From the NCBI GenBank assembly GCA_026075535.2, contig AP026544.2:11656001-11720000 (forward strand): a stretch of DNA of 64,000 bases, written 5' to 3'. Shown piece by piece: positions 9,970-63,271 of this stretch. The stretch's first letter is position 1. Each line of letters begins with the position of its first letter. The notes beneath the pieces were generated by a model, which was not told where the DNA came from, searched no databases, and was given only the letters and a program-made list of their open reading frames with translations. This stretch comes from Tricholoma matsutake. Taxonomy: Eukaryota > Basidiomycota > Agaricomycetes > Agaricales > Tricholomataceae. A program made the position numbers and the translations under genes.

Positions 9970-10973
9970 TACTTAGAAATATGTCCTAACTGCCCACAGT
10001 TAAAACATTTAAGTGGGGCTCGTCTTCCCACTTGATCAACCTCCATTGCCTCTGCTGGTGCTGCTGACTCCGTAACTATAGGTGTCACTGCCATGGCCGG
10101 TGGCTGTGCCCTCGGAGCTTGGGCCTGAGGTGCATTTCCTTTCTTGGACTTTCCTCCTGATGACTTTCCAAATTTACTACTTCCATACATCAACTTTGAC
10201 TCCGCCTGTTCCTGCCGATATTGCCGGTCAAGGCGCATTGCCCAATTATACCACTCATCCAACTTCTCTGGCATAGAAGGTAGTCAGTAGATAGACTTGA
10301 ATAAAGAGGGATTTAATCCTGCTTTCAAAAACTCTACCAACGCGGCTTCTCCCATGTCTGTTTGCAAAGCTTCTGCTTTAAACTGCAAAATAAATTCATC
10401 CGCCATTAAGGAACCTTGGTGCATGGTCTTTAATTTAGCATTGGCTGTCGCCTTTGGATTAGGGTCTCCAAACTGTGCCTCCAATCTCTCCAGAAATTCC
10501 TTGAAGGTTGCAAATGGTTTATTTCCTGTGGCAATTTGATTAATAGCCTCGTTTCTCCAGAACTGTGCTTTCCCCCCCTGAATGTATGAGAGAGCAAACA
10601 TAATCCTAGACTCGGCTGTATGAAACTCGGGCTTCCTCCCATGGATGTACAATACTATAGAGCTGATGAAGGATTTTGCATTCTCCATGGTACCGTCAAA
10701 GATTTGCAGGGGTGCATACTTAGGTAAGCGCGCTTTTCCATTTCCGGATTTCTCCACTGTCTCATCCTCCTGCAATATCCACTCCACCATCTCCTCCATC
10801 TCATCATCTCTTTCTCCTGTCGTCTCTGGCTGTACTTCCACTTGTCTGGGCTGTGATGCTGCCAATACTGACACTAATTGCGACATTTGCGCTGTGAGCA
10901 CATCAATTTTTGCCTCTAGTGCTGGTATGGGAACAGGATTAGGACCGGGATTAGAAGTTGAAGGTTCGGACAT
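9876..10973 (-). pseudogene. gag: Gypsy-1 copy A gag with zinc knuckle (one nonsense codon)
   Basis: Begins MSEPSTSNPGPNP and runs to FVEESQ, the same extent as the intact 365-residue gag of copy C (60485-61582). A single TGA at 10286-10284 replaces a CGA present in copy C. The capsid-like middle (about residues 80-240) has the fungal retrotransposon gag character (FLERLEAQFGDPNPKATA), followed by a CCHC knuckle CFNCGQLGHISKYC near the C terminus. It would package element RNA into particles; the nonsense codon truncates it before the knuckle. Confidence 0.9.
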
Positions 10974-11446
10974 AATTGTAGAATCTGTGATGAATCACTT
11001 CTTCAACAAATTCAAAATTTTACTTCGAGACCTCTCCAAACGTTTACGGGTCACGTGATAAGGTTCATCAAGGTTCGTCAATGGTTCGTCGTTCGTCAGG
11101 CGCCTATTTTGACACTTCGGATCAACAACCCTTCCAACAATGCCTGATCTCAGAGATATCGCTGAATTTGGCTTGTAACTAAAATAGTCGTCCAAATAGA
11201 GTGATGTAAATCGTAACTAAACCAGATCCGATTGGTTGTCTGGTTGCAGCTGTCCTAATGATGAGCGCTGCCTCTCAATCACTGGCAGTCGCAATGTAAG
11301 GCAAGGCCTGGTGTCGGCTTACAAAAGAAAAGGTAGATTACGTATATACAAGTACTTCCGGCTTGTGCTGAAAGGATGAGTAATTGGATGTGGCGTGGTG
11401 AAACAATGACGTATGCGCAAGTAAGAGAAGGCGCACTGATATGGGA
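10974..11446 (-). other. Gypsy-1 copy A leader between primer site and gag
   Basis: About 470 bp of untranslated leader, closely repeated at 61583-62055 in copy C. Apart from the primer-binding site I see no conserved ORF; packaging signals are expected here but cannot be identified by eye. Confidence 0.5.
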
Positions 11447-11457
11447 AGTTGTGTTCT
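11447..11457 (-). promoter_or_regulatory. Predicted self-primer binding site of gypsy-1 copy A
   Basis: The coding strand reads AGAACACAACT, starting 2 nt after the 5' LTR end. It is perfectly complementary to AGTTGTGTTCT in the LTR (11645-11635 on the minus strand), which lies where transcription should start. This is the arrangement known for Tf1 of fission yeast, whose mRNA 5' end folds back to prime reverse transcription. No tRNA-type TGG start is present at this position. Confidence 0.7.
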
Positions 11458-11459
11458 TC

Positions 11460-11861
11460 TGTTAGGGCGACACCCACTATCTGCTAGCTAAGACCATGTG
11501 GGTTCTCTCTACAAGAAAGGGACGGGATCCGCGCGCGTGATGGGGAAATTGATGGTTTTGATGCAAGGGGTTATTAATAGGTAAGTCTGTTGAGATAGGC
11601 CTTTCACACCGAAAACGTAGGTGGAATACCTAAGAGAACACAACTGGGGTCCCCTAGGCATATATTTAGGGTTTATATACTATGTTACATATATTATACA
11701 TTGTTGTTACCGACGCACTCGTACATGTGCATACATTTTGATGTGTGCGAAATAAAATTCTCACACTATCAAAATGTAGCATCATTTGGCATCATGTAGC
11801 GTAATTCGACATAATAAAATAAAAATGAAAGTTTATTAGGTAATGGGGTGGTTTCCTAACA
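11460..11861 (-). repeat. Gypsy-1 copy A 5' LTR with promoter
   Basis: 402-bp LTR with a coding-strand TATATAAA box (11679-11672). The A of AGTTGTGTTCT at 11645 lies 34 nt after the first T of that box, so transcription is predicted to begin at the self-primer sequence. The elements TATATAAACCC and CCCCAGTTGTGTTCT are conserved in all five gypsy-1 LTRs of the window; TATATAAGCCC replaces the former in copy C. Confidence 0.85.
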
Positions 11862-11985
11862 CCTACCATGTGGGCATCTCCCTGTCATAGGGAGTTGCTG
11901 TGCTGACATAGTTGGCATCCCACATGGATGGGCCCACATTTCTATCAAAGAGATGTTAAGCATGGTTGTTATGGCTGTGTGGGTG
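11862..11985. repeat. Tandem repeat, unit 3 (after gypsy-1 copy A)
   Basis: Continues the repeat of 5385-5645 (GCATCTCCCTGTCATAGGG, GGATGGGCCCACATTTC). Its first five bases CCTAC are the gypsy-1 target duplication. Confidence 0.65.
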
Positions 11986-12484
11986 TTGGGAGCTCCTTCC
12001 CCAGTGGACCCAGTGTGTGCTGTCAACAGTGTCATCCATCTGGGAAGGATAGCAGTGTTATTTGGATGTGCTGTAGCCCTTCCTTTCCCTTGGGACCTAG
12101 TGTGCGCTGCCAACAGCGTCATCTGTTTGGGAAAGGGCAAGGCTAACCTAAGTCCTGTAATATCTTCATAGTTTTCTAGGTAAGAGGTCTTTATTAATAG
12201 GGGGCACAGCTGTCCAAAGCCTTGTACACAGTTCCCACTGTCCTGGGCTAACATGGATGGGCCTTTGTCTCCTTGTAATTATTTGTTCATAGGCTGAGCA
12301 ACCCTCCAAAGCCTGTCTTGCAGTTCCAACCATGGTTTTGCATACCTTTGCTTAATTTTGCATAATTTGGTGTAATTTTGTGTAATTTAGGCAGGAGTTA
12401 CAAATAATAACAAACAGCCACATGCAATACTTTGCCATTTTTGTCAGTCACAGATAGTCACAACACCTTATACTGACATCCATC
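11986..12484. other. Intergenic with a short imperfect duplication
   Basis: A segment of about 75 bp (around 11992-12060) with GACCCAGTGTGTGCTGTCAA recurs imperfectly at about 12075-12140 (GACCTAGTGTGCGCTGCCAA). No gene was seen. The stretch immediately before 12485 should contain the promoter of the next gene, but I recognise no clear core element. Confidence 0.35.
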
Positions 12485-14438
12485 ATGCCTCCAAAAACTG
12501 CACGTCTAGCCTGTCTACCAGCTCTGTTAACAACATTTAGCATTCCATCTGTTTCCTGGAAACCAGATCCTAACATGATGCAGCAGTTCCAGCAGGATTG
12601 GAGTGTAACCTATACCATCCCTGAGGAGATCACGGTACAAGGGAGGACCTGGTATTCAATTTCAGCATATGGCCCCAAACAGGATTATCTTGGCACAATT
12701 CTCCTTCCACCAAAATACTATCCCATTTGGAGAAGATTGGTCTACAGCACATTATACCAGGAACAAATGTACAACTCATGGACAATCAACACCAAACGGC
12801 TTCAGAACAAGAGCTTAAACAAGGTGGAAGAGCAGATGATTCATTTAAGGAATAATGCCAGTGTTAGATTTGCACAATACCTTGTTTGTCGGCGTCTGGT
12901 GCTGGAAGAATTCCTAAAGATCCGATTCGATAACAACCTGGAGCCAGTGATTCAATCTCTGATTGAATTTGGTATTAGAAATTCCAGGGATTGGCTTTTT
13001 GACACCTTCGATGATGCCAAAGAAGCTGGTGCTGGCTACTTGAGGCTAGATCCTACTAATTCCAAGAACCTCAAGGAGTTTGGTGAGTGCAGAGGTTCTG
13101 TTATGTTCCATCATTTTCACATCAATTCCTCCAGAGAAGAGTTATGAGCCTGGACTGGACAAAATGTTTCCTCCTGCCCAAGATGATGAGTGGTGGGATG
13201 GAGATTTCAAGCACTTTGATTTCCATAAACTATTCTCTGAGATTGTAAAGCATGCCCCAGTTGCTATGGCCAATGAGTCTCTTGAAGAAACCAACTGGGT
13301 CCTGGCCTGTAATGGTATGGCACCCAATGCATGGCATGAGTATAGCACAGAAAGGATTGTATTTTTTTCAGAATCCTTTGTGGAATTCCTGCAGCAAGGT
13401 AAGAGTTAAAAGCTTTCAAGGCTATCATGGTTAAGTTTTGAACAGATGGGGTTGGTGATCCATGTGGTGAAGCTGAGGTCTTCTTCCATTGGTACCTTGG
13501 CCATGTGATGGAGATAACATCAGAGATGATGGATAATGAGATGAGAGTGGTGCTGGGGGATCATTTGAAGACAGACTTGGCAGGGTCAGCAGAGAGAAAG
13601 GCCTTTATCGAAAGGTTGCAAAACGATTCTCAGGCTGGAGAGGCTGGTCGAGAGGCTGGTTGAGAGGCTGGTAGGTGTTACTTACATTGACCAGTAGGTT
13701 CTTTGTACTGAACACCATCTTCTTTTTTCAGAAATAGCAGAGACTATTGCTGGCCTCAATGAGCTCCAGAAACAAAAAGGTATCTGCATGTTTGAAGATC
13801 TAAAAGACCTGAATTGTGCATTGCTGATTGTTTCTATTCTCCCAATTCCCCACCCATCAACAAGGGAATGAACAACATGGACATAGACCAGACCCTTCCA
13901 AACCCTGAGGATTAGATGGCTGGTAGGTCTTACTTACATTGAAAGGAAGGTTCTTTGTACACTGAACACCGTCTTCTTTTTTTAGACAAGAGCCTTCCTG
14001 AAGTGATTCAGAGCCTTCCTACCAAAGCCATCAATGTTCTACAAGCTTTATGTCAACCTGATGGTGGAGTGGAATTGCCCAAAGCTTTAGAGCAGCTCAT
14101 CCAGATTTTTGGCCCACCAACAACAGAACTTTGCAAGAAGTTGGTGGATGACTTGGTCATTGATCCATCTGGTGAATCCCATAAAGAATGGGGTATTGCA
14201 ATAGCAGATGCTATTGCTGGCCTCAATGAGCTCCAGAAACAAAAAGGTACCTGCATGTTTGAAGTTCTCAAAGACCTGAATTGTACATTGCTGATTGTTT
14301 CTATTCTAAGAAGCTTTTCCCAATTCCCCATCCATCAACAAGGAAACAAATGACATGGACATAGACCCGACCCTTCCAAACACTGAGGATGACATGGTGA
14401 AGCTCTACACCACACAGAATGCCAGACTACTTTCCTGA
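12485..14438 (+). CDS. Uncharacterised multi-exon protein gene (partly duplicated 3' end)
   Basis: ATG at 12485 opens a 199-residue first exon without stops (MPPKTARLACLP...NLKEF). A 52-bp intron (13083-13134, GTGAGT...CCAG) and a 47-bp intron (13399-13445) splice in frame, giving KEF-EKSYEPGLDKMF and LQQ-DGVGDPCGEAEVFF. Exon 3 runs to about 13670 with one late TGA (GGT TGA GAG). A further exon at 13986-14246 (DKSLPEVIQSLP...) is open; the last exon is not settled. From memory it resembles unnamed agaricomycete proteins with a WK.D......F...W and YEPGLD..FPPA...WW pattern; no enzymatic motif is visible. Best-preserved gene of the window; it faces the decayed gene at 14999-17351. Confidence 0.6.
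13669..14390 (+). repeat. Tandem duplication of intron plus exon within the uncharacterised gene
   Basis: The intron segment CTGGTAGGTGTTACTTACATT (13667 on) recurs at 13919, and the exon segment GCTGGCCTCAATGAGCTCCA occurs near 13750 and again near 14215, each followed by similar 3' sequence ending with CATAGACC(A/C)GACCCTTCCAAA. The first copy lacks the DKSLPEV part, so it is a partial, internally deleted duplicate. Confidence 0.7.
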
Positions 14439-14998
14439 ATATTTATCTGTACCTCTTACATTCTTTTAATTTTGATCTGATTCAAACAAGAGTGTACCAT
14501 CATCAACTGGCCACTGAGAAGGCCCAATCTCTGTAGCTTCCTTTACCATACAGGAAGGGAAATGTTAAATATGAATGGATGGTTGTTTCTTATCTGAGCC
14601 TTAGGAGAGGACCAGGAATATTTTACTGACTCATATAGGCAACCATAGGCAACCAGAGGCCACCGCAGGCGACCAAAGGCGACCACAGGTATGCCTACTG
14701 CACAATGCTAAAGGCAGCTGACACTATTCAAATGAGTAGAACCTGCCTCAGATACAAATAAAGGTTGAAATCAGTGCAGGAAACTATTGCAACATGGCAT
14801 TTGCCCATATTGAGGTAGTGTGATGTGACAGGAGAGGACCAGGAATATTCTACTGACTAGTATTATTAAAAATATGTTAATTTGCTAGATCAATACATGG
14901 GCCACTTAACAAATGCAGGGGCTGGTAGGATAAAGTTCAGGATTCCCAAATTTGCATTGGCCAGTTGATGGCTGTATTACATACATACAATTTGTAGT
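14439..14998. repeat. Intergenic with 10-bp minisatellite and a short direct repeat
   Basis: At about 14634-14690 a degenerate 10-bp unit GGC(A/G)ACCA(T/A/C)A is repeated about six times. The phrase GGAGAGGACCAGGAATATT(T/C) occurs at about 14602 and again at 14832. No gene seen. Confidence 0.6.
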
Positions 14999-15569
14999 TC
15001 AAAGGAACATTGTGGACAGACCATCAAGAGAAGGAAATATGTGGCAGAATAATAAGGGTGCTTTTACCTTGTTTAACCATGTAAAAAAAGACTGGCTGTC
15101 TAGTTTCACAAACTTGGACTTCCACTTACATGTTTTGCACTGGATCCTCACAGCATCATCCTTCAATTCTCCAATCATGTGTCCAGGGTGTCCCTTGCTG
15201 GGGCAGTTGGCTGTACCACACTTTGTAAAGGTATAGCCCAATGGCTGCTCAGCTCTGTGCATACCAATTTGGGATGCTGTAAATGCACTTGTGGTTTTGC
15301 AGATGGCAATAACAGTGTTTGTGGTGATGGAGGTGGGGAAGGCAACAAGGGTTTCAGATACTGTCTCCCATGGATCCCCATTTATGCCATGGACAGCAAC
15401 CCTTTCTACAAGCCCATTGAGAAAGGGCTGGATATCATGAGCCATGGTTTCCTGCCCACCAAATGCTATGAAAATGTCCAGAAAGCCACTATTAATCTTC
15501 TCAGTGTGGGCAATGCACACACTATGTTAAGACTATAGGTCCTTGACTCAGCCTTGGCTTCATGTATCG

Positions 15570-15820
15570 CAGTTGGAGACTTTCCAACTGTCTCGGTATC
15601 ACACTAGGAGACTTTCCTAGTGTATCGGGCTTCCTGCCTTCGCTTGGGTACTTCCTCAAGTAGTCACGGCTATCTGTACTCAGAGGCTCTCTGAGTAGAC
15701 CATTCGTTCATGTATCACAGTTGGAGGCTTTTCCAACTGTCGAGTTCGGGTTATCACCGATAGGGGCTCCCTAAGCTGTCGAGTTCGAGTGTATCACAAC
15801 TAAGGGACTTCCTTAGTTGT
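15570..15820 (-). repeat. Array of seven short hairpins with covarying stems in the LTR leader
   Basis: Perfect or nearly perfect stems around a constant pentaloop: 15570-15590 (8 bp, loop GACTT), 15601-15623 (9 bp, GACTT), 15643-15660 (about 6 bp with one G-T), 15677-15697 (8 bp, GGCTC), 15717-15740 (9 bp, GGCTTT), 15761-15773 (4-5 bp, decayed) and 15796-15820 (10 bp, GACTT). Stem sequences differ (CAGTTGGA, ACACTAGGA, TACTCAGA, ACAACTAAGG) while both arms change together. On the coding (minus) strand each hairpin is followed by GATA(C), and several by CGA. The array begins about 75 nt after the TATA box, so it should lie in the transcript's R/U5 leader. Confidence 0.85.
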
Positions 15821-15984
15821 CGAGTGTTCAGGTTGAGTCTAAGACCGTTGGTTGAATTAGGTCAAGCTGGAGAATACACAGAGTGTAGCTACAGCTTATA
15901 TACTGTTCTAGGACTACCTATCGTCCAATCGGAAAGTGAGATGCTTATCAGGTAAATATAGACAAGAACAATGGAGACAATAGG

Positions 15985-16068
15985 CCTCATGCCTCGCATG
16001 AGGTGTCCGATGTCACGGATCCGATGTCAAGGATCCGATGTCAAGGACATGCTGCGGTGCAGCATGTC
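15985..16068. repeat. Two strong hairpins and GGATCCGATGTC repeats in the solo-LTR upstream part
   Basis: CCTCATGC (15985-15992) pairs with GCATGAGG (15996-16003) around CTC. GACATGCTGC (16046-16055) pairs with GCAGCATGTC (16059-16068) around GGT. Between them TCCGATGTCA(A/C)GGA is repeated, and TCCGATGTCC recurs at 16079. They lie in the predicted U3 part, upstream of the TATA box in coding orientation. Confidence 0.75.
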
Positions 16069-17484
16069 GATCGTGGGGGTCCGATGTCCCAGGCCTCATG
16101 TAAAGGGGGTTGTCGTACCACGGTGCATGTGGGAGTGGGTGTACGGAGTCTCCACGCATCAAGGTGTCTTTCATCGGAAGAGAGTCAAGTCGAACAAGAA
16201 AAAATGAACTGCCTGTACTTGCGGGTTCCTGTAGACAAATCATAACACACTATGTTGAACAACATAGTTTGAAATGAGTCCAGTGAACAGATCCCAGTTC
16301 ACTGCATTCCTGACCACAGATCCAGAGGCAACCATAACCATCATCTGCCAGCCTCCATGAACCTTAGGGGTAATATCTGCCCAAGGCAGCACTCCAGGTC
16401 CAATTTCCAGAATAGTGTTGTATGTCTGGGCATCCTGGGATGCCTCAGCCATCTCCTGCCATATGTCATGTCCCACATATTTATGGATAATGTCCCAAAG
16501 AGATAGACAGGTTTTTACACCTGTTAAACCATCTGTAGCCTGTAGTGGCCATCCCAAGTGTCAGAATCAAGGACTATGATAAGATTCAGTGGCTGCCCAT
16601 CACTCAGAGACTGATTGATGAAGCCAATTTGAGTATTGTGCTTCATTGGAATTCCCTCCTTCATGTCACAGGTCGCCCAGTGTAACTATGCCAGGGGATC
16701 ATTAGCAATGAAGGAGAGAGTAGTTTGTATGGGACTCATACATCTGCAAGCCCTAATGCATGGAGGCTACCAAAGGTGCATTCCAGCAACTTCAGGACCA
16801 GTGAATCCCTGTTTTTTAGTTGGAGCCCAAGGAGGAGAAGAGGCCAAGTGATTTTGGGGGTCTGTCGAAGACCACTCCCAGTCAGATAATATGGAAGAGG
16901 GGCAGATTCTTTCTTATCCCTTCCATTACAGACAGAGCACTGAAACTTCGAGTGATAAAGCTTGACAGAGCTAGCCCCAATACACCCTGGACCACCTGTA
17001 TACCTACAAATGCACATTATAGCCCCACAGCTGATACAAACTGCTGAATCTTTGGGTTCACAAAAGTCAGAGCAAAAAAAACAGTAATTCGCCCCATATT
17101 TCCTGATGGCATCCAAGTACTTCACTGCCAAGGCTGTGGGATGTAGCAGAGCATGATGTATTAAGAGAAAAACACTTACCAGAAGACAGGATGCCATTGC
17201 TGTTTGGGGCTGATGGTTGAGGCACTAGCCAAGGAGCTGCTGAAAACCAATGTGAGGTCCACATCACATCACCTCTGTAGTGCACCAACCTGAAGGGGCC
17301 AAAGTCTGGGCAGAGCCACCACATGCTCCACCTGCCAGGATAACAAGGCAAAGGTCATTGTCTGTGGAGTGGAATCAATACGTTTCAACCAATGGCAAGT
17401 AGAAACATGTCTGCTTACATGCTTGAGTGCAGGGAGGCATATGAACAGTGGGGAAAGAAAGGAAGAAAGATAGCTTAGCCTCAT

Positions 17485-17898
17485 TTGTGAAGGATTTATA
17501 TTTGCTTCTTAAATATGCAGCCTCATGCATGGCACAGCCTCATGATGGCATAGCCTCATGATGGCATGGCCTCAAGGCCTGCCCAGCCCTGCCCCTCCTT
17601 TTGAGGTAATAGGCAGTAGTAACAAATGATTTTGCATAGTTCTGAGTAATGCGGCAGATAGTCAGGGTGATAGAGGATTGTGCGTAATTGTGTGTAATGT
17701 GGTAGGTATGCCATAGTGATATTAGGTAGCATAACTACATAGATTATCCTGTGTACAAAGTAACCATAGCAACTAGCATGTAAGATTAGCCTCATGGCTG
17801 ATCCTAGGCAGACAGCCCAGTCTGGTCTGCCCTTTTGGGTAGTACAGGGTGGTGACAAGTGATATTGAGTAGTTCAACTTGTGCATAATATAGCAGTA
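17485..17898. repeat. Repeat-rich spacer left of the pogo element
   Basis: CAGCCTCATGATGGCATAGCC-type words are repeated at 17520-17575. The segment near 17690-17790 (TGTGTAATGTGGTAGGTATG, GTAGCATAACTACATAGATTAT, CCTGTGTACAA) is closely similar to 20850-20950 on the other side of the pogo element, in the same orientation. No gene seen. Confidence 0.6.
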
Positions 17899-20828
17899 CA
17901 GTCATTCATGCCTCTTTGGAACAACCAAATACCAATAATGTCCAGAAATTTTGTATACCAAGTTAAAAGACATTCTGAATTGACAGGATTTATGCAATAC
18001 ATATGATATATCTATGAAGCACTTCAAAATCACTATCGGACAATGTTAAATGGTGTAGCGGACATAATCAGTGCAGAAGGTCATTATTAGTCAAAACTGG
18101 GTCATTGATACAAAGTCACATCAAGGTGTGATTTCTAAATCGGGGTGATTTCTAATCGCTACCTAGATCATCATCTATCAACATCTGGTCCAGATCCTGC
18201 TCATCCTCCTTGCTACTCTCATCCTCAGGATTAAAATCAGCTACCATAGGCTTGCAAAGGGCCTTTTCCATGGTTGGCATCTTTGGCTTCATCCATCTTG
18301 GCTTGCGATGGTCATATTTTGCATTGTCTCATTCAATTGTCCACTTCTTCACATCTTCATCCCATCCACTCTTCAAGTCAGCATTCCACCCCTTTCGATC
18401 CATCTCACACACTTTCCATACATCCATTGCTTCATTATCCTTTTCCTTGGCTTTTTTCTTCACTGCGGCTTCTTCAACCGCCTTATCTTGGCCGTCCTGC
18501 CACTCCTTGACACCTGCAATGATGTCAAGTTGTATTAGGATCTTTGCTCAGCTGTCCATGTTAATCTTGCCGGTCTTCCTCTTCTTTGATTTCTTCTCCT
18601 CTTGGGCTTGCAGCTGTCCCCTCACGCTCTCGAGGTACATTGAATGCAAGATGGTCTGAGCTTGCATCCCCTGCATCACTCTCTTCTGTGCATCCACAAT
18701 CATGTTGCTGGCACGTAATGTTTCCTGTAGATTTCTCTCCAACTCAGTGGTTGGTACTGTATCCAGAACCAAGGTATCCCGCTCATTCAGAGGTGACATA
18801 GTGGTAGTGAAAATGGGCAGCAATGTGGATGTCAACAGAATAGGTGAACTTGAAACTAGAAATGATGATGATGTCATTGCTAACAATGCTATCGCACATT
18901 GTACAGGCGTGTATGAAGAATTTGGTGATCCTGTGGTTCTCTCAGGTCTTTCTGGTAACTTCTCAATCTCCTGCTGCTTCCATTTGTGTGGTTTGTGATG
19001 GGATATCAAATCAATGAGTTCACAGACTGGGCTGGTCAATCCAAGTGGGAGAAGGCTGGTTGTCGATGTCTCAAGGCTAGGCACCATCATCTCTGTGGTA
19101 ACAACATCAGGATTATATGGCACTATTCCTGTCTTTGCAAAAGCCGCATGAATGGTACTCTCTGTGAATGCATGAACATGTGCCTTGGCATAGACTGTCA
19201 TGAAGTTCAGTTTACTCACAGCAGGTCCTCATGCTTCAAATCTGTCTCGTTCATCACTCCAGGCCCATTTCAAGACACTGAAGATCACGACATCAAGCCC
19301 TTGATATACATGAGTGGAATGTGAAGGATAGCACAACATGATGATGTTGTTGTCCCATGCATACTCCAGGAAGCCAAGTGTATAGTGCAAACTATGGCCA
19401 TCAACAAGAAGGAGTTGAGTTTGTCCATCTGCCTTCGCTGTTGTTTGCAGGTCCCAGTCTTTGAGCCACAATACACCAATCTCACCCGATGTGTACCCTT
19501 TCTTTTGATAGCCCATTCTGAGAAGAACAATGAGGTCAATCATATTATCTTATGAGTTTTAGTACCTCGCATCCAATGGGTTGTTCCGCAGCCACTTTGC
19601 TCCCCTTTGTAAATAACAGTAGGTGCAACGGTAGTTCCATCAGCACAGATAGTGGGTAAGACTGTGATGTTTTCTTGATTTCTGCTTCATTGCTGATGCT
19701 GTATTTTAGCTCCGGCTGGGCCAATGACCCACTCTGTCACACCTATGCCTGACTGTATCCCTGTCTCATCTGCACTGTAGACCAACTCATCTGGAATGTT
19801 ATACCTTTCTCTTACTTCCTTCAGTATTGCAAAATATTCTTCCTTTGTTATCGGATTGACAGCACGACCACGAGAGCCATCAAGTGCACTAGACCAATTC
19901 ATTCTGAGCCTATTGTGATGTTTCGTGATGAAGCAGTTCCCCCATTCCCTGCCCAGTCCTCTCTCGGGAAAGTCTTTGCCCAACCCATGCTGTAAGACTG
20001 CCTCAGCATGCTCCTTCAACCATCGTGGACTAAGTGGGAAGCCCTGTTGTGCCATCTCAATTGCAAGCTTCATGATAATCTCATGTTCCTGCTCTGTCAA
20101 CCAACTCTTTTTCCCATTAGACTGAGTCAAAGTTACACCACCTTTTGCATGGCGGATCAAGGTGTTAAATGAGAGAGGGATACACGTGCCTGTTGCAGCA
20201 AAGTGAGCATCTGATGTGTCTTGACAGATTTGACACAATGATTTCTTCTTTTCCCCAGGTGTGAGAGATCTCTGCTGTTCTTCTGCATAGGTCTTTGAAG
20301 CAGAAGCTTTGAGATCATCCACTTCCTTCCTGTTGAACTGGTTTTTAAGTTCTTGGGACTTTGCCTTGTTCACCATGGTGTGTAGGAGTGCTTTTTGCAT
20401 CTTGCTTTGGTCCCCCTTCCATTTTTGGATTCCTAATTGGGCAAGTGTGATGTGACTTCACGCGATGCTTGCTTTTGCTCATTGAGAACCTTTGCCTGAT
20501 TTCCTCTTTACACCAGATGGATATCCTAGAAATGACTGTCTCAAGTTCATTATGCAAGGTATGCTGATAATATTGTCACAAAAAATTCATCCAATATAAG
20601 TTACTCTTCATATATTACCTGAAACAAAATTCAAATTTTGGTCAAAACCAGCTACAAATTACTCTCCTGTAAGATCTAATAGCTGCACCAGTCCATGGTT
20701 CTACATATGTATACATATAAGCTACTCATTGGATATTATAAAAAGTCCGAGGGTATTTGTGCAGAATTGAGGTTGTCAGTGTTGTTTGTATCATTGACCC
20801 CGATGTATCAAAGAGGCATGAATGACTG
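17899..20828 (-). mobile_element. Pogo/Tc1-mariner DNA transposon
   Basis: Perfect 20-bp terminal inverted repeats, CAGTCATTCATGCCTCTTTG at 17899-17918 and its complement at 20809-20828, flanked by TA on both sides (17897-17898, 20829-20830). It encodes a transposase on the minus strand. Size 2930 bp. Perfect ends but a broken transposase suggest a fairly recent, now non-autonomous copy. Confidence 0.93.
18548..20482 (-). pseudogene. Pogo-type DDE transposase (CENP-B/HTH family), decayed
   Basis: Likely ATG at 20482 (MSKSKHRVKS). Visible features in order: HTH-like segment (SWLTEQEHEIIMKLAIEM, FPLSPRWLKEHAEAVL); catalytic core with first Asp in LVYSADETGIQ, second in LLLVDGHSLHYT and third in THVYQGLDVVIF, as in DDE_1 domains; lysine-rich, coiled-coil C terminus (QAQEEKKSKKRKTGK). 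A 48-bp intron (19565-19518) joins NNPLDAR to MGYQKKGYT. Breaks: an extra G in a G run near 20412-20416, a 1-nt loss near 19610, and TGA codons at about 19687 and 19226. It would cut and paste the element between its TIRs. Confidence 0.88.
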
Positions 20829-21215
20829 TAGTCAGTGTGATGATGAATGTCCATAATTCTGTGTAATATGGTAGGTATGTGGGGGTGTTAGCATGTAGCA
20901 TAACTATGTAGATTATTGTCCTGTGTACAAGCAACCATTGCAACTAGCATATATGCTGGCACAAGGTAACCATCACAACTAGTGTGTTACTTGGCCATCC
21001 AGCTTTTGAACAATTGCTGATCCTTAAGGTAACGTCCATCTTTGGAACAATTGCAATCCTACTTTAAAAACCCTCTGCAGCCAGCAGTTGTAATTCATCC
21101 TCAAACATGAAACACCTGGCCCATCCTGTGAGATCAAACATCATATGTCTACCTGTTCTCACAGAAATGAATACAGACACAAACCCCTCCTCACAACAAA
21201 AGGATCCCTGGGCCC
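20829..21215. repeat. Repeat-rich spacer right of the pogo element
   Basis: Contains the second copy of the repeat at 17690-17790 (TGTGTAATATGGTAGGTATG, GTAGCATAACTATGTAGATTAT). CAACTAG(C/T)(A/G)T words recur. No gene seen. Confidence 0.55.
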
Positions 21216-22960
21216 ATGGCCAATAGACCAAGATCTGTATCTGACAGTGACTCCTTTACTGAACTAAACAAGTTGGACCAGGATGAATCTCTGCAAACAT
21301 CTGAACAGGGAAAACAGTGTTGCCCTAAAGCAGCAAAAAAAAGAATACCCAGTGATTATACTTCTATGCTAGATGATGTTCCACATTAACTGATGTGATC
21401 CCAAGAGGATGACTTGCAATCAATATGTCCCCCCTCCAACATTCTTGGAAGGTGTGGCAACAGATGGCTTGATGGCCCTCTCTAATACAAGAGGGGAGAA
21501 GAAGTGTTTGAAGGACATGGAAAGTCAGATGCACCTGCATGTTGAAGCATTTAAAAAATATGCAGACTGTTTTCTTGTCCCCATGACTATTGCTGACCTC
21601 CAATCAGTCCAAATGTCCAAAGAAGTCAAATTACAGCTGGATCGGTACTGCTTAGAAACATTGGAACCTCAGCCCCACTCCTGACCATTTTCTGCCATGT
21701 ATTATGATCTGAGCAAAACATTATTGTTTTGCTATATGGGCGATTGCTGGAAGGATGGGTTGGTAGAGGTAAGATTTCTCTTCATATTTTCATCCAATAT
21801 ATCTGATCATATTCATCTGAACCCCTCTATGCAACCTCTAGATAGTCAGTACAAGGATCAAACCTTGACAGACCTTGAAAAAGGTATAGGAGAAGGAAAA
21901 AAGGTAGTTCATGATGGGCTTCATGTGGGTGCAACTTGCTTCAGTGAAGCTAGAACTAAACCCCTTGGTTTTTAGGGTGACACCCTGAAGCTCTACCATG
22001 AAGCTACACAGATGCTCTGCTCCTGTGTCCATCCCAAGTTTGAAAAAGACCAAAGATACAACACAAAACCCAAAGAACTCCTTGATCCATGCCTCATGCA
22101 TTACCAGATCCAATCAAACCAAGCAGCTGGCACTTCAGAGGCAGAGGAGCGGAAAGGGGTGCTTCACCTGGTTCAAGGATGGATCCAGCAGAAACAGCCA
22201 GAAAAGGTAGGCCTTGGACATATCCCTATCTGCCCATTGACTCATGGTCTCCCCTTAAAAGGGTCTTTTCTTATCCTCGGAATTTACTCATAGTGGAATT
22301 GGCCTGGGTGGAATTTGGTGCTGGTACCATGCCACTCGACCTATCACCTTGGTTTTGGCCACCATTTTCAAGGAACTCTTTCCTAAAGAATATGAAGAAT
22401 TTAAGGCTGCTTTTGAGGCAGGGGTATGGTTGGAGGACGATCCTGGTCCATGGCTAGGACGAGCCATCATATACAAGGTGTTTTCTGTTATCTGCATGAA
22501 ATGTTAATCACAGGCTTCTTTTTGGGAGGCTTTGCTGCATGGGCCTTTTTTGGACTTGAAGGGATTACCAAGGGGGCTGTGGAAAGAATAACCCATGGGT
22601 CATCAGTTTTTGCCCCTGTAGGATGTCACTTCCTCAATTCCCACTTTGTTTCAATTGTTTTGGGATCAGCCTGAGGTGCTTTGGTCAGAATTTGACATTG
22701 TGGATGCCCGCACTTTGGTGCTAGGGCTATTGGACAGGGATGGTATAGAATCATCATGGAGGGATGGGAACTCATTCGGAACACTTTCAGCATTCAACAC
22801 AGTGTCATCACTTTGCGCAGGTAGGGGAGCTTCATATGGGACCCCTGGATCCATTATCACTAGGCAAACTTAATCACCAACTGATAACAGTAATGACAGT
22901 GCTATGTACTTTGAGGGCTTTCACACAATGTGTCCATTGCCTCCCATTCTGTGATGTGTC
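21216..22960 (+). pseudogene. Decayed multi-exon coding locus, possible 2OG-Fe dioxygenase-related family
   Basis: Coding-like pieces occur at 21216-21380 (MANRPRSVSDSDSFTELN), 21409-21684, 21840-21975, 21980-22200 and 22340-22480 (FKELFPKEYEEFKAAF, DPGPWLGRAIIYK), then 22620-22820 (WDQPEVLWSEFDIVD). The frames change and stops intervene, so introns and damage cannot be separated. The DPGPWLGRAIIYK segment reminds me of the region upstream of the iron-binding HxD motif in agaricomycete TET/JBP-like proteins, but no HxD is visible. Function is therefore unproven. Confidence 0.35.
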
Positions 22961-26395: not shown

Positions 26396-26719
26396 CACCC
26401 ACCCCATGCCTATGAGCATCTACTTGTGGGGTGGTTCAGGGGGGAGAAGAATGGGGACAGGAGAGTGAGAGGGCCAGGGGACAACCCAGGGAGAGATGAA
26501 CGCCACCACGAGCAACTGTTGCTCGTGGTGGGTGTTTTTAATTTATTTTTATTATTGATAGTTACGGCCCCCTCCCCTTGAGCTTGCAAGGGGAGGGCTT
26601 AGTATTATTTAATTACCCATATTAATTACCCCTCGCACAGATGCGAGGGGGTCAATTTAATAATCTATTCATGATATATATAAAAATTAGATTTCAGTAA
26701 TAAATAGATATGATGTATG

Positions 26720-26812
26720 TAAACTACTTGGCTTAAGTGGTAGAGTGTGCATGTGTTGTCGTCACGTGATTGCTAGTCCAGAAGGCTGTTGGTTCAATTC
26801 CTGCTGTGCACA
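26720..26812 (+). promoter_or_regulatory. tRNA-like module, right side of TIR element 2
   Basis: A box TGGCTTAAGTGG (26729-26740) and B box GGTTCAATTCC (26791-26801). The downstream sequence CTGCTGTGCACACATTATTTTGTGAG resembles the right module of element 1. It points outward to the right terminus. Confidence 0.6.
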
Positions 26813-27323
26813 CATTATTTTGTGAGACTTATAAGACTTTCTCTAAGACTGGAACTCGGACTTTACTTGGACAGTACTTTAGAAGGTGTAAATAAATACA
26901 CAATTGATGTTGTCCAAGCAAAGTCCGAGTGCAGTCCGAGTGTCTGAGCAGTGTCCAAGCAGAGTCCAAGCAGAGTCCAAGCAGAGTCCAAGCAGAGTCT
27001 GAGTGTCTGAGTGTCCGAGCAGAGTCCAAGCAGAGTCCACTCGGACTGGGGGGGGGGGGAGTGTAAAGTACGGTCTCAAGCCGGTGTGGGGAATCCCCTG
27101 GAAAGTAATGTGCAAGGAGGCTTTTCCCACCATCTCCTTTAACATGGCTATTAAGCAAAGATTGCATGATTCCAGAAACAACCCTGTCTTCCTCCAAAGA
27201 CTGATCTGGATATGGATCCTCTCAGAAATGAATGGTTTAGACAGGCATAATAAATATCTCACCTTGTATATCTATGACATACTGCATGTCACCATGTCCA
27301 AGCATGTCAACAAAAATGCTTGA

Positions 27324-62470: not shown

Positions 62471-63271
62471 ATTGCTGTATATGGACACCAACACATTTGA
62501 CTTTGATGTGGACACTATATTTAGTGTGTCAGGTTCCCTTTGAGGTGTGTGTACTGATCCTCACAGTGGATGCCTTTATGATGCCTCCTGTAAGGGGACT
62601 AGAGGGTGCCCCACATGTTTCTCCTATTTTTTATGTTCGTCCTATATTTTTCCCCATCTCGTTTCCTTCTATTCTTCATTTTCTATGATTTTTCCTCATT
62701 TTATTACTAATTTCCCTTTCTATCATGTTTGTGCATGTTGACAGTTTTATATTTAGAGATGGAGTACCCCTTCCGACATCTACCCTTTGGTACAATGTCA
62801 TTCAGTGGCCTTGATCAGCCTATCTCCGCCTTTTCTATTTTTAGATTATTATTTGATTTTTGCAGTTTTCACATATACTGGGCACTGGCAAAGGGGTCCT
62901 TAGAGTTTTCTCTTTGGATTTCCCTTTGCTAGGTGTGCCTCCAATCCCTGTACTATGTAGTATAATTTTAACTTCGGATTTCCCTTTGCTAGAGGCTGAG
63001 GTTGCCCTTATACCTCCCCCTTTGTCTAATATGATACATATATATAGTATATAGTCAGACAACCACCTCAGTCTGTTATACAATGACTGAGGTGAGTAAC
63101 AATATTATTATTTAGATGAGAACGGCTACTTACTGTACCTATAGTTTATTCTTGTATATGCTAGGTACAGCATTCATGTATAGTCTGTTATACAATGACT
63201 GAGTTTATTCTTGTATATGCTCGGATTGACTTGCTACAGGTTATGGGCCACTCCCATCTTTGACTGACAGT
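62471..63271. repeat. Spacer with short direct repeats, no gene recognised
   Basis: GTCTGTTATACAATGACTGAG occurs at about 63071 and 63182; GTTTATTCTTGTATATGCT at about 63146 and 63203; GGATTTCCCTTTGCTAG at 62917 and 62978. ORF-like pieces lack protein-like features. Confidence 0.5.

Follow-up and report, generated by a model that had tools for sequence, protein, structure and literature searches.

Self-priming of reverse transcription by the 5' end of the RNA is established for the retrotransposon Tf1 and its relatives, and the available portions of the reports describe their leader as a "pretzel" built of three duplexes (PMC10085805, PMC7175516, PMC4600332). For the matsutake mushroom, Tricholoma matsutake, the available part of the genome report attributes 37.4% of the genome to LTR elements and gives a length of 426 bp for the LTR of marY1 (PMC10211490). 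According to the accessible part of a 2023 study, the full-length retrotransposons identified in Tricholoma section Caligata are marY1, marY2N and megB1 (PMC10627285). The chromovirus with a hairpin array described below appears to be absent by name from that set and may sit in some repeat library.

The window analyzed here, a stretch of 64,000 nt of T. matsutake (assembly GCA_026075535.2, contig AP026544.2, positions 11,656,001 to 11,720,000, forward strand; all coordinates below are counted from its first base), contains a cluster of hairpins for which an original prediction, made from the sequence alone, had proposed a constant loop, stems that change while remaining paired, and a place in an LTR leader. 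We consider it probable, at roughly 70%, that this array is an RNA structure in the R-U5 leader of a self-priming Ty3/Gypsy chromovirus of the Tf1/sushi type. The most important context, missed by the original prediction, is that the array lies between a putative self-primer and the primer binding site (PBS). No such array was described among the matches listed from open-licence literature on self-priming elements, basidiomycete and chromovirus leaders, and packaging hairpins, as judged from titles and the starts of abstracts.

The LTR and Its Element

The array occupies the R-U5 part of a 723-nt LTR, the element sense being the minus strand of the window.

15525..16247, minus strand: solo LTR, 723 nt, sense TGTTATG...TCTTAACA
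15520..15524: target-site duplication CACTA, left copy, from flank comparison
16248..16252: target-site duplication CACTA, right copy, from flank comparison
15896..15902, minus strand: TATATAA, which we take to be the TATA box of the LTR promoter

The initial placement of the array in an LTR, downstream of the TATA box and in the part expected to be transcribed from the minus strand, is thus borne out by the 723-nt LTR. Because no second LTR or internal part of the same kind adjoins 15525–16247 in the window, we read it as a solo LTR, and by sequence it is that of a Ty3/Gypsy chromovirus of T. matsutake. With the window LTR as the query, the best 40 of 1,423 first-look candidates were scored as family-1 LTR places; the first-look candidates, numbering more than 1,000 places per query, of which 40 were scored, suggest a high but unproven copy number. 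Full-length copies elsewhere measure ~7.5–7.75 kb. The 5-bp flanks agree in all four full-length copies with comparable LTR ends, and the LTR pairs within these four show 20–28 differences over 698–805 sites, mostly transitions.

The reading frames of the full-length copies, pieced together from two of them, lie on the minus strand and encode, in this order, Gag, protease, RT, RNase H, the integrase zinc domain, SH3_Tf2-1 and a chromodomain; this is the order of Ty3/Gypsy chromoviruses (Gag, PR, RT, RNase H and IN, with a C-terminal chromodomain). In particular, the frames of copy L049 scored above the Pfam cut-off for Ty3_capsid, RVP_2, RVT_1, RT_RNaseH_2 and Integrase_H2C2, and a frame of copy L050 for SH3_Tf2-1 and Chromo, with rve falling under the cut-off in both. 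ARAGORN (bacterial code) found no tRNA genes in the window, and Rfam returned zero families at the gathering score for 10000–22000.

The U3 part of the 723-nt LTR (15985–16068) carries TTGACATCGGATCC repeats and the palindromes GACATGCTGC-ACC-GCAGCATGTC and CCTCATGC-GAG-GCATGAGG; similar palindromes or repeats occur in several related LTRs. In the LTR copies L009–L048 and L062–L101, CpG sites are heavily altered by C-to-T and G-to-A changes, as methylation or a RIP-like process predicts.

Hairpins in the Window Copy

Seven hairpins stand between the arms of a long helix.

15830..15846, minus strand: closing helix, 5' arm GGTCTTAGACTCAACCT (inverted repeat I1; relatives' folds)
15796..15820, minus strand: hairpin 1, ACAACTAAGG-AAGTC-CCTTAGTTGT, perfect stem, with orthologous forms in relatives
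15756..15779, minus strand: hairpin 2, right arm decayed; in most other copies ACAGCT(T)AGG-AAGCC-CCTAGCTGT
15717..15740, minus strand: hairpin 3, ACAGTTGGA-AAAGCC-TCCAACTGT, perfect stem
15677..15697, minus strand: hairpin 4, TACTCAGA-GAGCC-TCTGAGTA, perfect stem
15643..15660, minus strand: hairpin 5, imperfect, CTTG(A)GG-AAGTA-CCCAAG, 6 bp with one bulged base
15601..15623, minus strand: hairpin 6, ACACTAGGA-AAGTC-TCCTAGTGT, perfect stem
15570..15590, minus strand: hairpin 7, CAGTTGGA-AAGTC-TCCAACTG, perfect stem
15538..15554, minus strand: closing helix, 3' arm AGGCTGAGTCAAGGACC (inverted repeat I1; relatives' folds)

The array was found where the original prediction had put it, although seven fully paired hairpins with stems of differing sequence had been claimed: five have perfect stems of 8–10 bp and two are imperfect (15756–15779 and 15643–15660), and the stems do vary, except that two of the five perfect ones are identical in sequence. 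The two right-arm changes in hairpin 2 are private to the window copy in comparison with 39 other aligned copies. Counting as perfect any hairpin with a stem of at least 8 and a loop of 3–7, we found five in 15540–15840, whereas 2,000 dinucleotide shuffles averaged 0.018 and never exceeded 1. Among 1,274 overlapping stretches of 300 nt taken across the window, at least four such hairpins occur in just 4, each of which covers the array.

Folding is significant on both strands and slightly more so on the antisense one (z-scores of −5.4 for the sense and −6.5 for the plus strand), which would suit palindromes that act in DNA, as cruciforms or protein sites, and not in RNA; palindromes are present in U3 as well, and G.U and A.C are about equally frequent among variants shared between copies (5 and 4), giving no sign of a bias toward sense-strand RNA. 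We give this alternative very little likelihood, as it is at odds with the joint conservation of loop and stem and with the RNA-level partners (primer, PBS and closing helix) that bracket the array.

The second-densest hairpin place of the window, 26503–26650, has three perfect hairpins of 9–13 bp with unrelated stems and loops within 150 bases, beside a GA-rich repeat. At ~26740–26840, the words GGCTTAAGTGGTAGAGTG and GGTTCAATTCC, which we take to be tRNA-like A-box and B-box motifs, suggest a SINE-like element.

The Array in Related Elements

The original prediction had staked its standing on the presence of the array in other copies, and each of the 125 leaders counted (38 of group A, the window's type, 29 of D, 12 of C, 19 of F and 27 of E) has at least two hairpins with the same loop. 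RAGNM-loop hairpins of −6 kcal/mol or lower range from 2 to 7 per copy, with means of 6.6 in A, 5.6 in D, 4.2 in C, 2.7 in F and 2.7 in E; shuffling as many as ten copies from each group gave averages of 0.005–0.03. Counted in this way, the window copy has four. Compared with D, group A has an additional hairpin where the array begins.

Family-1 hairpins are enclosed by the long closing helix, and family E has hairpins with AAGNC or AAGCA loops between its primer and PBS. The predicted combination of a constant loop with a following GATA(C) word held in part: the loops AAGTC, GAGCC and AAAGCC are present in the window, and GATA(C) follows most family-1 stems; by eye, it was not seen after family E stems, and it is therefore no universal component of the motif. 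Thus, the parts that are constant across families are the loop and the position. One array position keeps a loop of its own, AAGYA, the loop elsewhere being AAGYC.

A Putative Self-Primer and Its Primer Binding Site

Upstream of the closing helix in the element sense lies a candidate primer.

15859..15869, minus strand: self-primer CAGCTTGACCT, putative RNA 5' end, complementary to the PBS of full-length copies

The PBS, AGGTCAAGCTG, is the reverse complement of CAGCTTGACCT and falls outside the solo LTR of the window; in full-length copies, it follows the 5' LTR (...TTAACA) after a 2-nt gap. Among 101 family-1 loci examined, 44 had a readable PBS, 53 ended in flank, 3 lacked a clear LTR end and 1 lacked the primer. 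The PBS matches all 11 nt in 27 of the 44; in another 15, every base pairs if one or two G.U are allowed, and 2 have a mismatch. In every case, the PBS starts 2 nt past the LTR. Of the 98 family-1 copies in which TATATAA was found, 97 have the primer 33 nt downstream of the beginning of the box. Family E has a primer, TAGTTTAGATCT, and a PBS, AGATCTAAACTA, that are unrelated to the family-1 pair yet complementary to each other: among 27 copies, 22 have no mismatch, three have one, one has four and one has no recognised primer, and the primer again sits 33 nt past TATA (26 of 26). Judged from these alignments, the whole primer/PBS pair differs between the two families while complementarity is kept. 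A tRNA-primed PBS begins with TGG, which pairs with the CCA end of the tRNA; neither the family-1 nor the family E PBS opens with TGG, and tRNA priming was rejected by eye.

Ten further Gypsy places, hand-chosen among the 150 integrase matches listed and read over 2.4 kb each, comprised seven of family E, two of family 1 (L108, and L107, extended as L131) and one, L102, of another kind. L102 has two 426-nt repeats, a short leader of ~110 nt and, at 1862–1984, a primer/PBS-like match of 10 nt between the LTR and a site 2 nt beyond it, the two being 113 nt apart. RAGNM-loop hairpins were found in neither of two LTRs of this 426-nt type; the array is therefore dispensable for self-priming in general. 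An LTR of the 426-nt type with 89.7% identity to that of L102 is present in the window at 62589–63012.

Primer and PBS are separated by about 240–345 nt in family 1; in family E, the distance is about 237 nt. Of 16 single-copy leaders tried together with their PBS, 15 were folded (L053 was skipped), and all 11 primer:PBS pairs had predicted probabilities of 0.75–1.0 in the 15. The closing helix is present in 10 of the 15 minimum-energy folds and missing from those of L066, L071, L080, L108 and L116; in some folded leaders, a competing hairpin forms at the LTR end. An exact 19-mer spanning the LTR end and the PBS had four hits in IMG/VR, none with the primer in the 600 bases upstream; these hits, coding-like by eye, were considered as outside relatives and taken as unrelated.

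Since the leader ahead of Gag is strongly folded and its linkers contain ATG triplets, it might alternatively serve translational control, slowing scanning or causing shunting and so favouring genome RNA over messenger. The position of the array is already explained by the primer/PBS frame, and we consider such a role distinctly improbable.

Covariation Between Subfamilies

The first hairpin takes the form ACAACTAAGG in A, ACAACTCAGA in C, ACAGCT(T)AGG in D and some F, and ACAG(T)CTAGA and ACAACTTAGA in F, each with a matching partner arm of its own. At a position where A-T and G-C are both common, 96 of 96 copies are paired; the apical pair is formed in 92 of 96, and a pair with three types in 50 of 54 (copies with ten-base arms on both sides), two misread rows, in which the pattern had taken the next hairpin, having been subtracted by hand from these counts. 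When arms were swapped among the six subfamily forms, the true assignment was the best (1 of 720), although some arms taken singly pair equally well or better with the partner of another subfamily, the D left arm doing better with the L078 right arm than with its own. For the AAGYA hairpin, the same test is weak, giving 1 of 6 while one cross pair is better; for the closing helix, it gave 2 of 24, and the assignment other than the true one is the swap of A and D, which have identical left arms. In these comparisons, covariation is visible between subfamilies and not among recent copies: no compensated changes were seen by eye among the 40 closest copies, and for this reason, the search was extended to the other subfamilies.

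The claim that structure is kept while sequence changes therefore holds between subfamilies, where the arms pair (1 of 720; 96 of 96), and column tests gave it no support at the level of single copies. In the 98-copy set with mechanically assigned columns, 24 of 37 private internal stem variants break a pair and 13 leave it paired, as is expected of dead copies, yet this lends no support to covariation. Variants shared by at least three copies were paired in nine cases and broken in six, and the difference from private variants was not significant (p = 0.09); 30 of 48 variant pair states were unpaired in the 76-copy set. This outcome of the column tests is due in part to bulge positions that shift between subfamilies in the alignment. 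Of 80 leaders, L029 (no LTR end) and L042 (no primer) were left out throughout; L062 and L063 are outside the 76-copy set and shortened in the 98-copy set, and L115, whose primer is changed, is outside the F set and retained in the primer/PBS count. The copy tree has strong support for 9 of 95 inner branches, and hence, the counts of changes on it (P1 9, P2 5, P3 1, P4 9 and P7 6) were not relied on.

Diversity at non-CpG sites is 0.022 in stems and 0.058 in linkers (p = 0.016, with sites treated as independent). CpG sites in linkers have a mean diversity of 0.35, and CpG takes up 39 of the 132 linker sites and 3 of the 102 stem sites. Much of the gap between conserved stems and variable linkers is therefore CpG decay.

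Paired double changes might also come from the way in which the array is generated, if tandem duplication combined with arm-templated copying (template switching during reverse transcription or replication) keeps producing perfect palindromes anew and introduces both changes in one step. The units are related direct repeats, two with one stem, group A exceeds D by one hairpin at the array start, and double changes are frequent at one hairpin; arm-templated remaking could be the source of some double changes. As an account of the array, we find this mechanism unlikely: it leaves unexplained the persistence, over two families, of the loops and of their place between primer and PBS, the bracketing and the lower non-CpG diversity of stems than of linkers, and even the widely separated primer and PBS change together from one family to the other.

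A Possible Role in Self-Priming

Under the self-priming reading, transcription would start at CAGCTTGACCT, 33 nt after TATA, and the 5' end of the RNA would pair back onto the PBS next to the 5' LTR; as in Tf1, RNase H would then cut the folded 5' end, yielding the primer of reverse transcription; in the Tf1/sushi group, this cut falls between bases 11 and 12. The bracketing helix and the hairpins, if they fold in the cell as predicted, would compact the leader such that the primer meets the PBS, and selection would hold the pairing of the stems while leaving their sequence free. With their common loop (AAGYC, in one position AAGYA), the hairpins probably offer Gag or RT a docking site that is repeated along the leader. 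The constancy of the loop argues for a bound protein beyond compaction, and we hold tentatively, at a little under even odds, that Gag or RT is bound there in addition to the compacting role.

Some retroviral packaging signals consist of repeated same-loop stem-loops in the RNA leader. The array could likewise be a packaging or Gag-nucleation device, with AAGYC loops bound by zinc-knuckle Gag and its nearness to the PBS incidental. Families with unrelated primers have the loop in common while their stems differ, 2 to 7 hairpins per copy would be tolerable for a docking array, and a CCHC knuckle frame was found in two of five full-length copies scanned. The hairpin that keeps its own AAGYA loop looks more like a position-specific structure, and common loops might be inherited via duplication. 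We regard packaging, which is compatible with self-priming, as plausible at somewhat less than an even chance.

The self-priming and docking roles may be combined. An expandable, covarying array with a near-invariant pentaloop, placed between primer and PBS, would then fold the leader for self-priming and offer identical docking sites to Gag or RT, with the unit number ranging from 2 to 7 and with loop and pairing outlasting a complete change of primer and PBS; we advance this combination more tentatively still, the odds being rather against it. If the loops do bind Gag, the array would offer a compact, repeat-built example of multivalent genome recognition.

Comparison with Known Systems

Retroviral packaging leaders resemble the matsutake leader in that a number of stem-loops close to the PBS share a single loop motif; the likeness is one of description, and Gag binding is putative here.

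marY1, of the same species, is likewise of the Gypsy type, and L102, tentatively linked to marY1 by the 426-nt length of its repeats, shows the 10-nt match suggestive of self-priming. As far as the available part of the report allows comparison (PMC10211490), marY1 differs in LTR length, 426 against the 723 nt of the window LTR, and the 426-nt type is without RAGNM hairpins.

The closest likeness in priming is to the Tf1/sushi leaders (Tf1, Tf2, Tj1 and Tosmo1-3). In the available portions of the reports, these have an RNA that begins with a stretch complementary to the PBS next to the 5' LTR, an additional pairing of LTR sequence downstream of the primer with sequence near the PBS, and the chromovirus protein set. 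The first and last of these have counterparts in the matsutake element, and its bracketing helix is a candidate counterpart of the additional pairing. The complementarity of the 5' end and the PBS is present in its sequence, the 5' end being placed by the 33-nt distance from TATA, and it is on this complementarity, together with the Pfam domains, that membership in the Tf1/sushi type is proposed. In contrast to the three duplexes described there, the matsutake leader of about 240–345 nt holds 2–7 same-loop hairpins, and its PBS begins 2 nt after the LTR; where two further duplexes accompany the primer duplex (PMC10085805), we find a single bracketing helix, which forms in 10 of the 15 folds, and in some, the competing hairpin at the LTR end. 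For Tf1 and related elements, the broad lines of how the RNA 5' end reaches a PBS hundreds of bases away are known; the matsutake family appears to bridge a long leader of this kind by means of modular hairpins. With more than 100 natural copies and two primer types, the matsutake leaders are a ready dataset for covariation and probing.
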